Positions 12,085 to 57,692 of a stretch of 64,000 nucleotides of DNA are shown here, piece after piece. The notes below the pieces were generated by a model. It was not told the origin of the DNA, did no database searches, and was given only the letters and a program-made list of their open reading frames with translations. This stretch comes from Nocardioides cavernae (GTDB lineage: Bacteria > Actinomycetota > Actinomycetes > Propionibacteriales > Nocardioidaceae): NCBI RefSeq assembly GCF_016907475.1, contig NZ_JAFBCA010000001.1:4402001-4466000 (forward strand), written 5' to 3'. A program made the translations under genes and the position numbers. Within the stretch, counting starts at the first letter, position 1. The number at the start of each line of letters is the position of its first letter.

Positions 12085-12106
12085 GGACTCGGGCTGGTTG
12101 GCGGTC

Positions 12107-12151
12107 ATCGTGGAACATCCGCGTCACCTGATGACTCGGATCTTCCACGAT
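12107..12151. terminator. Hairpin after small membrane gene
   Basis: Arms 12107-12121 and 12137-12151 pair over 15 bp with one mismatch (ATCGTGGAACATCCG against its complement), around a 15-nt loop. It is 22 nt past the stop of the plus-strand membrane gene and on the 3' side of guaA (minus), so it could end transcription from both sides. The remaining bases to guaA (12152-12265) hold nothing else I recognise. Confidence 0.55.
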
Positions 12152-12265
12152 CCTGTCCGGGAACGTGTGCCAGAGTCACACGCACCCTGGCGCCGTTTCC
12201 CGGCGTCCTGACCTACGAGATCACCCGGTCCGTATGGCTCGCGGCGCAACCCCGGCGCGGGTGGC

Positions 12266-19851: not shown

Positions 19852-19881
19852 GGCGCCAGTCTCTCAGGGAGGCCGAACGAC

Positions 19882-19926
19882 ATCGCGGAGCCGGGAGGTC
19901 ATCGGGTGACCTCCCGGCTCCGCGAT
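19882..19926. repeat. Perfect 20-bp-stem hairpin, copy 1
   Basis: Arms 19882-19901 and 19907-19926 (ATCGCGGAGCCGGGAGGTCA and its exact complement) enclose the 5-nt loop TCGGG. It sits 5 nt past the stop of the AbiEi-like gene. A near-identical hairpin lies at 20961-21005 on the other side of that gene. It could act as a rho-independent-type terminator, though no T-run follows. Confidence 0.92.
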
Positions 19927-19931
19927 CACGC

Positions 19932-20939
19932 TCACGCGGCCTGCCTGACGGCACACCCGGGCCCACACGCGTACGCCGGCGGCCCGCCTCGTTGCACGAC
20001 CAGCGAGGAGAGCTTCGCGGCCGTCCGGCACGGCCGCCCGACCACCTGACCCCACGAGAGCCGGACGGTTCCGCGTCCGGACACCGCCGCATCGAGGTCT
20101 CGCTCGAAGTCGCGGTCGCGCTGCTCGGCCGTGTCGTGCACGAGCCGACCGTCGAGCTCGATCGGCAGGTCCAGGAGCAGCCCGTCCCGGTAGACCACCC
20201 CGCTGGCCGTCACCTCCCGCACCTGCCGCATGGCGGTGGGCAGCCCGTGCGGCCGCTCGACCCGGACGAGATAGGCGTGCTCGAGGACCGAGCACGTGCC
20301 CGAGGCCACGTCGTCGAGGACTCCCTCCAGGAACTTGCGCCGCCGTGCACGCGTCCGTTCGGACAACAGGCCTGCCATGCGGACGGCCGTCGTGTGCTGG
20401 CTCTGAACGGCACGGGCGACCGCAGCGATCGCCTCCATCTCGGTGCGTGCCTCGAGCGCGACGTCGAGCGCCGCGTCGTCGTACGCAAGCCTGGGTGGGC
20501 CGAGGTTCCAGCGAGCGCGGGCGTCGAGCCCCGCAGTGCGTACGACGACGACGCCGGGCACCTGCAGGATCCGGCGCTCGGGGGCGATGCCCACGTGGAT
20601 CGGCACCCGGTCGGCGCCAGGACGACCGGGCCCGTCGGCGGCGCGGAGTGCCGACGCCCCGATGAGCGCAGCCGGCCAGGCGTAGAGGACGGCCGCCCAG
20701 GCGCGCTGCGACCAGGTCGCCTCCCCGGTGTGGGAGAGGTAGACGCGGGGCAGCACGCGGACCAGGTCACGGCGTCGTTCGAGGCGGCGGAGGTCGCCGG
20801 GGCGCAGGCCGCACCCGAGCGCCTGGCTTCGCGAGACCACCCCGCACTGGCCGTCCAGGTGGCCGGAGAGGTGGAGAAGCGCCGGATCGTCTCGCACCGC
20901 TCCAGCCTGCTGGCACCGCTGGAGCGGGACCAGACGCAT
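19932..20939 (-). CDS. AbiEi-like winged-helix / DUF559-like nuclease protein (paralogue 1)
   Basis: About 335 residues. The N-terminal part GVVSRSQALGCGLRPGDLRR with RVLPRVYLSHTG resembles the AbiEi-type antitoxin winged helix (Q..G..... R.V..GvY). The C-terminal part resembles the DUF559/Vsr-like PD-(D/E)XK fold: DLPIELDGRLVHDTAEQRDR with E-DG-H, then RDLDAAVSGRGTVRLSW with a late R..W. No separate AbiEii toxin is adjacent. Start uncertain: an ATG at 20981 lies in the hairpin loop and is unlikely; 20939 (MRLVPLQRC) or GTG at 20897 are better. Bracketed on both sides by one hairpin family. Such proteins are numerous in Nocardioides; the biological role is not established. Function as nuclease is inference. 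Confidence 0.72.
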   Translation of the reverse strand: MRLVPLQRCQQAGAVRDDPALLHLSGHLDGQCGVVSRSQALGCGLRPGDLRRLERRRDLVRVLPRVYLSHTGEATWSQRAWAAVLYAWPAALIGASALRAADGPGRPGADRVPIHVGIAPERRILQVPGVVVVRTAGLDARARWNLGPPRLAYDDAALDVALEARTEMEAIAAVARAVQSQHTTAVRMAGLLSERTRARRRKFLEGVLDDVASGTCSVLEHAYLVRVERPHGLPTAMRQVREVTASGVVYRDGLLLDLPIELDGRLVHDTAEQRDRDFERDLDAAVSGRGTVRLSWGQVVGRPCRTAAKLSSLVVQRGGPPAYACGPGCAVRQAA

Positions 20940-20960
20940 CCGACGATCTGTGGAGGGCGG

Positions 20961-21005
20961 ATCGCGGAGCCTGGAGGTCATCGGGTGACCTCACGGCTCC
21001 GCGAT
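20961..21005. repeat. 20-bp-stem hairpin, copy 2
   Basis: Arms 20961-20980 and 20986-21005 with loop TCGGG. Differs from copy 1 only at two left-arm bases (CCTGGAGG for CCGGGAGG region) and one right-arm base, leaving two adjacent mismatches in the stem. It abuts the guaB3 stop codon (21005-21007), so it may serve as the guaB3 terminator. Confidence 0.9.
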
Positions 21006-22114
21006 CAGTGCTGGACGACGACCTCGATGCGCTGGAACTCCTTGAGCTCGGTGTAGCCCGTGGTGGCCATCGCGCGGCGCAGGGCGCCGATGAGGTTCAT
21101 GGTGCCATCGGCGACGCGGGAGGGGCCGAACATGATCTCCTCCAGCGACCCGACCGGCTCGAAGCCGACGCGCTCGCCGCGGGGCAGCTGGGCGTGCGTC
21201 GCCTCGCTCCCCCAGTGGAAGCCGCGGCCGGGAGCCTCGACGGCCCGGGCGAGCGGCGAGCCGATCATCACCGCGTCGGCGCCGCAGGCGACGGCCTTGG
21301 CGATGTCGCCCGAGCTGCCGATGGATCCGTCGGCGATCACGTGGACGTAGCGGCCGCCGGACTCGTCGAGGTAGTCGCGGCGGGCGGCGGCGACGTCGGC
21401 GACGGCGCTGGCCATCGGGACCGCGACGCCGAGGACCGTGCGCGTCGTGTGGGCGGCCCCGCCGCCGAAGCCGACGAGCACGCCGGCGGCACCGGTGCGC
21501 ATGAGGTGGAGCGCGGCCTGGTAGGTCGCGCACCCGCCCACGATGACCGGCACGTCGAGCTCGTAGATGAACTCCTTGAGGTTGAGCGGCTCGGCCTGGC
21601 TGCTCACGTGCTCGGCGGAGACCGTGGTGCCGCGGATGACGAACATGTCCACGCCGGCGTCGACGACGGCCTTGACGTGGTCCTTCGTGCGCTGCGGCGA
21701 GAGCGAGCCCGCGACGGGGACGCCGGCGGCGCGCACCTCCTTGAGGCGTTCGGTGATGAGCTCCGGCTTGATCGGCTCGGTGTAGATCTCCTGCATGCGG
21801 CGGGTGGCCTCGTGCCCGGAGAGCCCGGCGACCTCCTCGAGCAGGCCGGTGGGGTCGTCGTACCGCGTCCAGAGGCCCTCGAGGTTGAGCACCCCGAGGC
21901 CGCCCATCTGGCCCAGCGCGATCGCGGTGGACGGCGACATGACCGAGTCCATCGGCGCGGCCAGCACGGGGATGTCGAACCGGTAGGCGTCGATCTGCCA
22001 GGCCGTGCTGACCTCCTCGGGGTCGCGCGTGCGCCGCGAGGGCACGATCGCGATGTCGTCGAAGGAGTACGCGCGGCGGCCGCGCTTGGCACGGCCGATC
22101 TCGATCTCGCTCAT
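21005..22114 (-). CDS. guaB3: GuaB3-family IMP dehydrogenase-related protein
   Basis: 369-residue TIM-barrel protein of the IMPDH/GMP reductase superfamily without CBS domains. MSEIEIGRAKRGRRAYSFDD is the typical actinobacterial GuaB3 start; VLAAPMDSVMSPSTAI and YVHVIADGSIGSSGDIAKAV (phosphate-binding) are clear. The catalytic Cys loop of IMPDH (GSICTTR) is not found; the matching region reads VIRGTTVSAEHVSSQ. Known GuaB3 members are reported in actinobacteria beside guaB2; the reaction (GMP reductase or IMPDH-like) depends on lineage. Start at 22114 rather than longer upstream versions because MSEIEIGR is conserved. Confidence 0.93.
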   Translation of the reverse strand: MSEIEIGRAKRGRRAYSFDDIAIVPSRRTRDPEEVSTAWQIDAYRFDIPVLAAPMDSVMSPSTAIALGQMGGLGVLNLEGLWTRYDDPTGLLEEVAGLSGHEATRRMQEIYTEPIKPELITERLKEVRAAGVPVAGSLSPQRTKDHVKAVVDAGVDMFVIRGTTVSAEHVSSQAEPLNLKEFIYELDVPVIVGGCATYQAALHLMRTGAAGVLVGFGGGAAHTTRTVLGVAVPMASAVADVAAARRDYLDESGGRYVHVIADGSIGSSGDIAKAVACGADAVMIGSPLARAVEAPGRGFHWGSEATHAQLPRGERVGFEPVGSLEEIMFGPSRVADGTMNLIGALRRAMATTGYTELKEFQRIEVVVQH

Positions 22115-34208: not shown

Positions 34209-35927
<1,719 letters not shown>

Positions 35928-56436: not shown

Positions 56437-56480
56437 ACGTCATGGCGGCTGGTCGTCCTGACGACCCGCATCCATGACGT
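56437..56480. repeat. Palindrome of ACGTCATGG family (copy near coaA)
   Basis: Arms 56437-56455 and 56462-56480 (ACGTCATGGCGGCTGGTCG against ACGTCATGGATGCGGGTCG after complementing) match at 16 of 19 positions, with a 6-nt loop. It lies 14 bp after the coaA stop and 27 bp after the end of the AbiEi-like paralogue 2 (minus). Same core as 35865 and 57649. Confidence 0.8.
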
Positions 56481-56506: not shown

Positions 56507-57457
56507 TCACGCGGCCTGGCGCCAGCCGCCTGCACGCAGTCCTCGTTCGACCTGGTCGAAGAAGTCGTCCGCGGCGACGCGAAGCCCCAGCAGCGGCAGG
56601 CGCAGCACCCGGGCCTCGCCGAGGACGACCTCGTTCTGGCGAAGGGCGTCCGGCACGACCGAGGTCGCCCACGTGTGGTGGATCCCGTCGATCTCGACCA
56701 CGAGGCCGAAGGTGTCCCAGCAGACGTCGAGGTAGTAGCGGCCGTCCTTGCCGCGGCGGACCACCTGCCGGTCGGGTTCGGGTAGACCCCGGCGCCGGCA
56801 CTCCCGTGCGACGTCCAGCTCGCCGAGCGAGCGAACGCCACCGAGAAGGTCGTTGACCACCGCGTGCATGAGCTCGCGTCGGCGGTCACGCTTCACGGCC
56901 AGCAGGGCCTGGCCCAGGTGGGCGGCGGTCGTCAGCCCCTGCTGCACCGGCATCGTCAGGAGGAGCGCCGCCTGCTTGTCGCTCTCCGCCCACATGGCCG
57001 CGCGTACCGCTGCTACCGGGACGCGGGTCCGGGGCACTCCGGTCGCGACGCGATCGACGCTGGACCAGCGTCGCGTCCGACGGATGTCGAGGCCAACGCC
57101 CCGCAACGGCGTGACCCCGCGAGGCACCGACACCCGATGGACGCGCGCCTCGAAACCGGTCAACCCCGACGCCACGAGCGACGCCGCTCCGTCGAGCATC
57201 GCGCGATCCCCTCCCTCGAAGACCGCTGCCCAGTGCCGGCCGAGGATCGGGACAGGGCCGGTGTGCAGGCAGATCGAGCGGGACCACACCCGCTGCCAAC
57301 GCCGCGCCCGCAGCTGCGCCCGGACCTCGCCGCGCGTCATGCCTGCGGCGTACGCCTGTCCGCGAGACACGACGCCGCCCTGGCAGTCCGCGATCGCCGC
57401 GAGCTCGTCGATGATGCGGTCCCGCTGCTCGCGGCCGTGCCTGGTCTGTGTGCCCAT
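56507..57457 (-). CDS. AbiEi-like winged-helix / DUF559-like nuclease protein (paralogue 2)
   Basis: About 316 residues. N-terminus DCQGGVVSRGQAYAAGMTRG and WQRVWSRSICLHTGPVPILG parallels paralogue 1 (GVVSRSQALGCGLRPG). The C-terminal nuclease-like fold is fuller: LDVCWDTFGLVVEIDGIHHT (E-DG-HH), then DALRQNEVVLGEARVLRLPL with the late RQN...R strand, the pattern of DUF559/Vsr-like PD-(D/E)XK proteins. Catalytic residues appear present. No partner toxin gene adjacent. Flanked by hairpins at 56437-56480 and 57596-57692. Start could also be further upstream (57580). Role unknown; defence or genome maintenance possible. Confidence 0.72.
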   Translation of the reverse strand: MGTQTRHGREQRDRIIDELAAIADCQGGVVSRGQAYAAGMTRGEVRAQLRARRWQRVWSRSICLHTGPVPILGRHWAAVFEGGDRAMLDGAASLVASGLTGFEARVHRVSVPRGVTPLRGVGLDIRRTRRWSSVDRVATGVPRTRVPVAAVRAAMWAESDKQAALLLTMPVQQGLTTAAHLGQALLAVKRDRRRELMHAVVNDLLGGVRSLGELDVARECRRRGLPEPDRQVVRRGKDGRYYLDVCWDTFGLVVEIDGIHHTWATSVVPDALRQNEVVLGEARVLRLPLLGLRVAADDFFDQVERGLRAGGWRQAA

Positions 57458-57595: not shown

Positions 57596-57639
57596 ACGTC
57601 ATGGACCGAGGTCCCCATCGCAACCACTCGCCATGACGC
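57596..57639. repeat. Partial palindrome of ACGTCATGG family
   Basis: ACGTCATGG (57596-57604) and CCATGACGC (57631-57639) are inverted; the right arm reads GCGTCATGGCGAGTGGTTGC on the minus strand, matching the family core. Inner arms pair poorly, so this may be a decayed copy. Adjacent to the copy at 57649. Confidence 0.55.
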
Positions 57640-57648
57640 TGTCGTACG

Positions 57649-57692
57649 ACGTCATGGCAGGCGGTCGCTGGGGCAGCCGCTCGCCATGACGT
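57649..57692. repeat. Palindrome of ACGTCATGGC family, upstream copy
   Basis: Arms 57649-57668 and 57673-57692 (ACGTCATGGCAGGCGGTCGC against ACGTCATGGCGAGCGGCTGC) match at 16 of 20 positions; loop about four bases. Shares ACGTCATGGC(N4)GGTCG with the groES-groEL hairpin and the coaA copy. 192 bp upstream of paralogue 2 and 48 bp beyond the GNAT stop. Confidence 0.82.

Follow-up and report, generated by a model that had tools for sequence, protein, structure and literature searches.

The closest described systems are those of the repetitive extragenic palindromic (REP) sequences and the REP-associated tyrosine transposases (RAYTs, also TnpAREP), which are Y1 HuH transposases; gene and palindromes together are termed a REPtron. 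According to published accounts, RAYT genes are flanked by REPs, further REP copies are dispersed between genes, each gene has one REP type, and REPs also occur in clusters (PMC2817692, PMC6006769). We report here on a window of 64,000 nucleotides (G000:C1:4402001-4466000) from the single-contig, 4.85 Mb chromosome of Nocardioides cavernae, genome G000, in which a gene, P1, is enclosed by two near-identical palindromes, termed R1. P1 and these two palindromes probably form a unit that resembles a REPtron but has an enzyme other than a RAYT; for this unit we infer binding and cutting by the protein and spreading of the palindromes. The association of the P1 gene family with matching palindromes is well supported: its genes, which combine an AbiEi fold with an endonuclease-like region, are often bracketed by a gene-specific palindrome pair; the same palindrome family recurs solo or in doublets, mostly between genes, in the same genome; and palindrome and protein vary together.

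The initial annotation had placed two hairpins, at 19882-19926 and 20961-21005, around a nuclease-like gene between guaB3 and glpD. The neighbours are confirmed by their Pfam matches (IMPDH for guaB3, DAO and DAO_C for glpD), and the hairpins are real and beyond chance: on the two strands the folding z-scores are -9.3 and -9.8 for the first and -7.9 and -6.4 for the second, and 0 of 200 shuffles are as good. The stem of the first is perfect and is the longest among the ten hairpins of the window with a stem of at least 12; three simulated first-order Markov windows held four to seven such hairpins, with a longest stem of 13. The second stem has mismatched positions. Both share the TCGGG loop, as annotated; the three differing bases originally counted come down to two, with 45 of 47 positions (96%) identical over 19882-19928 and 20961-21007. 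The TGA stop codon of guaB3 overlaps the GATC at the start of the upstream palindrome. Rfam gave two miRNA matches, both far under the gathering score.

The protein model of P1 shows an AbiEi fold plus an endonuclease-like domain, with weak fold matches to nucleases. PADLOC returns AbiEi models along with a single weak DrmA match, NCBIfam no match above its cut-offs, and Pfam DUF559 is matched, by weak similarity, in one of 40 sequences (P1 and 39 aligned homologues). Four residues, D252, E261, D263 and H268 in P1 numbering, are invariant in all 40; across 92 loci of the genus the E-x-D-G..H motif is present in 91 and the upstream aspartate as well in 78. A family-model scan of the P1 neighbours, which recovered guaB3 and glpD, found no adjoining AbiEii gene. 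The named homologues of the P1-type gene are mostly from Nocardioides. Carriage as phage or plasmid cargo was considered and rejected: tblastn of P1 against plasmids gave zero matches, and one phage record matched at 44% coverage and 35.6% identity.

Bracketing is a recurrent property of the family. The upstream and downstream flanks match each other (score of at least 20) in 58 of the 92 loci; swapped pairs reach this score in 3.7% of cases and shuffles in 0.65%. In 41 loci the own opposite flank is the single best of 92 candidates. Two of the 58 (L010 and L065) were judged chance matches in coding DNA and were excluded from the comparison of palindrome with protein below. Among 241 called genes from the window and 16 further stretches, taken as a control, 12 reach 20; four of these are family genes and one is a cargo gene bracketed by palindromes, leaving 7 of 236. 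The gene starts of this control were set heuristically, and hence P1 scores 24 in it and 43 in the locus test. When only hairpins are considered, 35 of the 92 loci have one on both sides and 24 of these pairs match (swapped pairs, 3.1%), and control pieces from gene bodies have hairpins in both pieces in 0 of 92. An earlier flank test that included reverse strands (own median 32, 95th percentile of swapped pairs 58) was dropped because oppositely oriented flanking genes inflated the swapped pairs.

The palindromes are also found away from the genes. A covariance model of R1 was trained on flanking 47-nt palindromes of the own and 14 other genomes, using 29 of 31 (L020U and L022D left out). It finds 20 places in the own chromosome at E<=1e-3: four flank P1 and its paralogue P2, and 16 are solo. 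The variable arm columns of R1 pair more often than chance would give, in one instance in 17 of 20 copies where 8.2 are expected (one 50-nt copy omitted). Across the genus, a search with stricter filters, in which both strands were counted, gives matches at E<=1e-3 in 81 of 196 genomes. Of the 196, 16 have a close P1/P2 relative (E<1e-100), and every one of these has R1 matches, 4-31 each; G112 has 27 though none of its sequences entered the model. The other 180 have at least one match in 65 cases and at least ten in 7. Among the 19 genomes without any homologue by the P1 search, one has a match (G029, single and weak, E 7e-4), and a laxer search adds G036 (3.8e-4) and weaker ones in G028 and G088. 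Since the genome groups may differ by ancestry too, this correlation alone is no proof of dependence. The initial annotation would have been content to give up its proposal if the hairpin stood after unrelated genes with no tie to the family; unrelated genes do have solo hairpins next to them, yet the link of the palindromes to the family is clear. We also observed, at L142 (G045), two R1 palindromes 1.4 kb apart that bracket two open reading frames (ORFs), with no family homologue found in either.

A second family gene of the window, P3, has a palindrome family of its own. Its pattern, CGTCATGG-N-CCATGACG, has 18 occurrences in the own genome, of which 17 are exactly 42 bp long, and the reversed-pattern control has 0. 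Three of these elements flank P3, two of them as a doublet, and doublets with an 11-bp gap number four in total. The inner GG/CC columns, which the pattern left free, do not vary among the 17 distinct 42-bp copies, while the columns between them pair no better than chance; the element is not a continuous hairpin. As the arms of R1 pair and these columns of P3 do not, the common feature is an inverted repeat of half-sites, with a full hairpin in part of the families. The solo P3-family element of the window has a counterpart of its own subtype at the matching site of G030; G017, G084 and G164 have none between the aligned flanks. Near the P3 site, L219 (G017) and L222 (G084) show an R1-like palindrome, GATCGTCGAG...CTCCACGATC, in the gap where P3 was not found. 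A 605-bp segment of G164 (L226:9216-9820) holds a 127-aa ORF seemingly unrelated to P1 and is bracketed by doublets of two P3-type subtypes; in its place the own genome, G030, G017 and G084 show only a short gap.

These findings bear on an alternative that the initial annotation had itself raised, namely that the hairpins are plain terminators of guaB3 and P1; their likeness would then be due to chance or gene conversion. They are indeed strong RNA hairpins right after stop codons. The idea is weakened by the absence of a T run 3' of both, the sequence after each having been inspected, and by the variable arm positions of the P3 family, which pair no better than chance. The same 47-nt family moreover stands at 16 solo places, and palindrome letters vary between loci and agree within a locus. 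Dispersal and covariation contradict the idea; we reject termination as the main explanation and regard it as highly improbable.

The palindrome tracks the gene, not the site. The closer two proteins are, the more alike their palindromes, compared across sides, over the 56 matched loci (rho 0.34; 0 of 999 permutations). Of cross-locus pairs below 50% identity, 573 in number, the share scoring at least 20 is 0.00 (rounded); it is 0.02 at 50-60%, 0.25 at 60-80% and 10 of 10 above 80%. At one site, that of P3 in G030, gene and palindromes have been replaced together: of eleven 1.5-kb pieces compared between G030 and the own genome, nine are 91-98% identical (median 96%), and the G030 gene at this site is just 57% identical to P3, with another palindrome subtype on both flanks. 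The genes nearest P3 are those of G012, G022, G141 and G112 (78-83%). Seven of 30 P3 relatives are at least 79% identical to it (own included); by exact pattern, five of these have the own subtype on both sides and L311 has it on one, its other copy being altered. L310 has it just with a base change, read by eye. A relative at 68% has the own subtype on both sides, and 22 relatives at 56-64% have 0 matches by exact pattern.

The same observations speak to the possibility that the sites serve the host: the protein would be a DNA-binding regulator or chromosome organiser, the palindromes its binding sites or transcription-ending roadblocks, and the nuclease idle or used in defence. The AbiEi-type fold suits such a role, as do the sharing of some sites by several species and the context of the solo sites: by heuristic gene calls, 26 of 29 in the own genome lie between convergent (12) or tandem (14) genes, with one divergent, one unclear and one inside an ORF (a weak match, E 0.03). 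That single divergent case means, on the other hand, that few sites lie in promoter-type gaps, and the bracketing of the gene itself, the fixed 11-bp gap of the doublets, the switch of palindrome subtype with the gene, the bracketing of an unrelated gene and the retention of E-x-D-G..H in 91 of 92 loci do not fit. We consider a host-serving role unlikely.

Presence and absence of the gene were followed at two sites. At 30 guaB3 loci from the own and nearest genomes, a P1 homologue adjoins guaB3 in four: the own, G164 (68%), and G112 and G141, which have fragments. The remaining 26 have none in the stretch, with glpD directly adjoining guaB3 in 20 and no glpD in the stretch in six; the absence of the block from relatives that the initial annotation proposed to look for is thus borne out, and its presence in all of them, which would have refuted that proposal, is not what we find. 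The fragments in L194 (G112) and L199 (G141) are situated in the guaB3-glpD interval, and two decayed palindromes accompany the one in G141. The guaB3-glpD gap of G030 resembles both outer palindrome arms joined; as that of G017 is similar, an old empty site and an excision are indistinguishable there. At the second site, next to a gene that we take from its sequence to be miaB, family genes stand in both orientations, in 18 and 22 of the 92 loci. In G077 there is a single palindrome beside the neighbour gene. At several miaB flanks (L002:1333-1358; L016, L017, L023) a second, shorter GGAGTCACCGGATATCCGGTGACTCC-like palindrome accompanies R1. In G125 (L154:1140-1230) the gene is missing from this site and one pair of the two palindromes is present, like a solo remnant. 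The pair stands on both gene sides in several genomes, its order direct in some and inverted in others.

A transposon in the usual sense, in which gene and palindromes move as a whole by cut and paste and solo palindromes are remnants after gene loss, would account for the lack of P1 at 26 of 30 guaB3 loci, the two orientations at one site, the gene-less pair in G125 and the foreign-gene segment of G164, missing in four compared genomes. It sits poorly with 40 of 92 loci at one conserved site, with only one to a few genes per genome, and with the own genome, in which the paralogues of P1 are 63% and 33% identical and there are no recent identical gene copies. Nor was a target duplication seen: at four sites of the window and two further own solo sites no duplication was readable, the flanks being too diverged. 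Such whole-unit movement appears quite improbable to us, more so than a host-serving role.

The association extends beyond the genus. A class-level search finds matches at E<=1e-3 in 142 of 394 genomes and 68 of 137 genera, and among the matches listed, 17 of 33 loci outside the genus have matching flanks (swapped pairs, 2.4%); 13 of the 33 came from this search and 20 were fetched in addition. In family f21, which we take to be Jiangellaceae, the pattern CCATGATCAT-N18-40-ATGATCATGG has 8-111 copies per genome in 17 of 18 genomes and 0 in three Nocardioides, with a control at 0 in all 21. In G324 the family gene at 7587083-7587997 lies between copies at 7587028 and 7588115, and the matches listed include eight more copies from elsewhere, whose inner letters resemble theirs closely. 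The named Jiangella and Phytoactinopolyspora loci match at a score of at least 25 in 13 of 21.

Several observations weigh against a REPtron-like unit. Flank matches are lacking in 34 of the 92 loci of the genus and in 16 of the 33 listed outside it, where repetitive GC-rich DNA accounts for some of the 17 matches, L256 for instance; 8 of the 21 Jiangella and Phytoactinopolyspora loci fall below 25, a score that 8.3% of swapped pairs reach. The training palindromes of R1 flank genes in 15 of the searched genomes, and these copies hence match by construction; the solo copies are outside the training set. Seven R1-rich genomes have no close P1/P2 relative, though in one of them, G044, an R1 palindrome adjoins a gene of 48% identity. 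Five of the 19 genomes without a P1-search match show weak P3 matches. Finally, some solo sites are common to several species; as no insertion junction is readable either, spread may be slow.

For the REPtron-like unit we propose the following sequence of steps. The AbiEi-like part would bind the inverted half-sites, probably as two protein copies per element, and the C-terminal domain would cut or nick at or beside them. Repair from another copy, or another copying step, could then spread the palindromes and keep them alike within a genome. The palindromes would thus multiply in trans, the gene retaining one per side, and recombination at them may replace or remove gene and palindromes as a unit, sometimes leaving a solo palindrome. 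Extending this to several families of Actinomycetes, we lean slightly towards a class of REP-like palindromes in which a protein of AbiEi-plus-nuclease type takes the part of the HuH transposase, with copying in trans by cutting and repair, co-evolution of gene and palindrome as matched specificity pairs, and carriage of foreign genes, as in the 605-bp segment of G164.

Features of the P1 and P3 palindrome systems in the window
Feature	Position	Strand	Remarks
P1 gene	19932..20939	-	335 aa; AbiEi-like N-terminal fold and endonuclease-like C-terminal domain (predicted)
R1 palindrome downstream of P1, 47 nt	19881..19927	.	shuffle folding and covariance model
R1 palindrome upstream of P1, 47 nt	20960..21006	.	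overlaps guaB3 stop codon
Solo R1 palindrome	12106..12152 (G000 4414106-4414152)	.	E 2.5e-9; no family gene adjoining; convergent context by heuristic gene calls
P3, second family gene	56507..57457	-	316 aa; DUF559-like motif D..VVEIDG..H; Pfam DUF559 E 0.077, below cut-off
P3 downstream 42-bp inverted-repeat element (CGTCATGG...CCATGACG)	56438..56479	.	pattern search
P3 upstream 42-bp element, first of doublet	57597..57638	.	pattern search
P3 upstream 42-bp element, second of doublet	57650..57691	.	pattern search; 11 bp from first
Solo 42-bp P3-family element	35875..35916	.	pattern search

Compared with known systems, P1 has the AbiEi fold, as modelled, in common with the AbiEi antitoxin of the type IV toxin-antitoxin system AbiE, but differs from it in the extra C-terminal endonuclease-like domain, the lack of an AbiEii gene beside it and the dispersed palindromes. 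To the DUF559 and Vsr-like endonucleases, including the homing endonuclease I-Bth0305I, its similarity is weak; it differs in lying between genes, not within one, and in having cognate palindromes. The likeness to REPs and RAYTs is that of arrangement: P1 and 58 of 92 loci are flanked on both sides by their own palindrome, the palindrome family is here too dispersed between genes, and each gene type has its own palindrome type, with several types per genome and doublets. The differences lie in enzyme and element. Neither P1 nor its 39 aligned homologues encode the Y1/HuH transposase (PF01797); across the genus, Y1_Tnp turned up in a single genome out of 196 and 0 times in the own, by a search whose control found it in 5 of 14 known genomes. 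The elements here are 42-58 bp long with outer and inner half-sites, and their copy numbers are 20 and 18, and 8-111 in f21, compared with the 37 to 427 perfect REP copies that one study gives for Stenotrophomonas (PMC2817692). Membership among the RAYTs is ruled out by the missing Y1_Tnp in the own genome. The REP/RAYT-style or cassette-like unit of the initial annotation therefore holds in the sense that the locus probably works like a REPtron, its hairpin being dispersed and tied to a gene family, and not in the sense that it is a RAYT: the arrangement is REP-like and the enzyme is not. In the open-access literature searched (bioRxiv was outside its coverage) we found no description of such a palindrome-gene unit. 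If our reading is right, the REP lifestyle has evolved twice, the second time around an unrelated enzyme and in a genus nearly devoid of Y1_Tnp; a widespread group of proteins whose present annotation is AbiEi antitoxin or DUF559, with matches in 68 of the 137 genera searched, would gain a role; many natural protein-palindrome specificity pairs would be at hand; and the question of how REP elements spread would become testable with a different enzyme. The unit would then be an apparently unrecognised counterpart to the known REP systems, built on a different enzyme.
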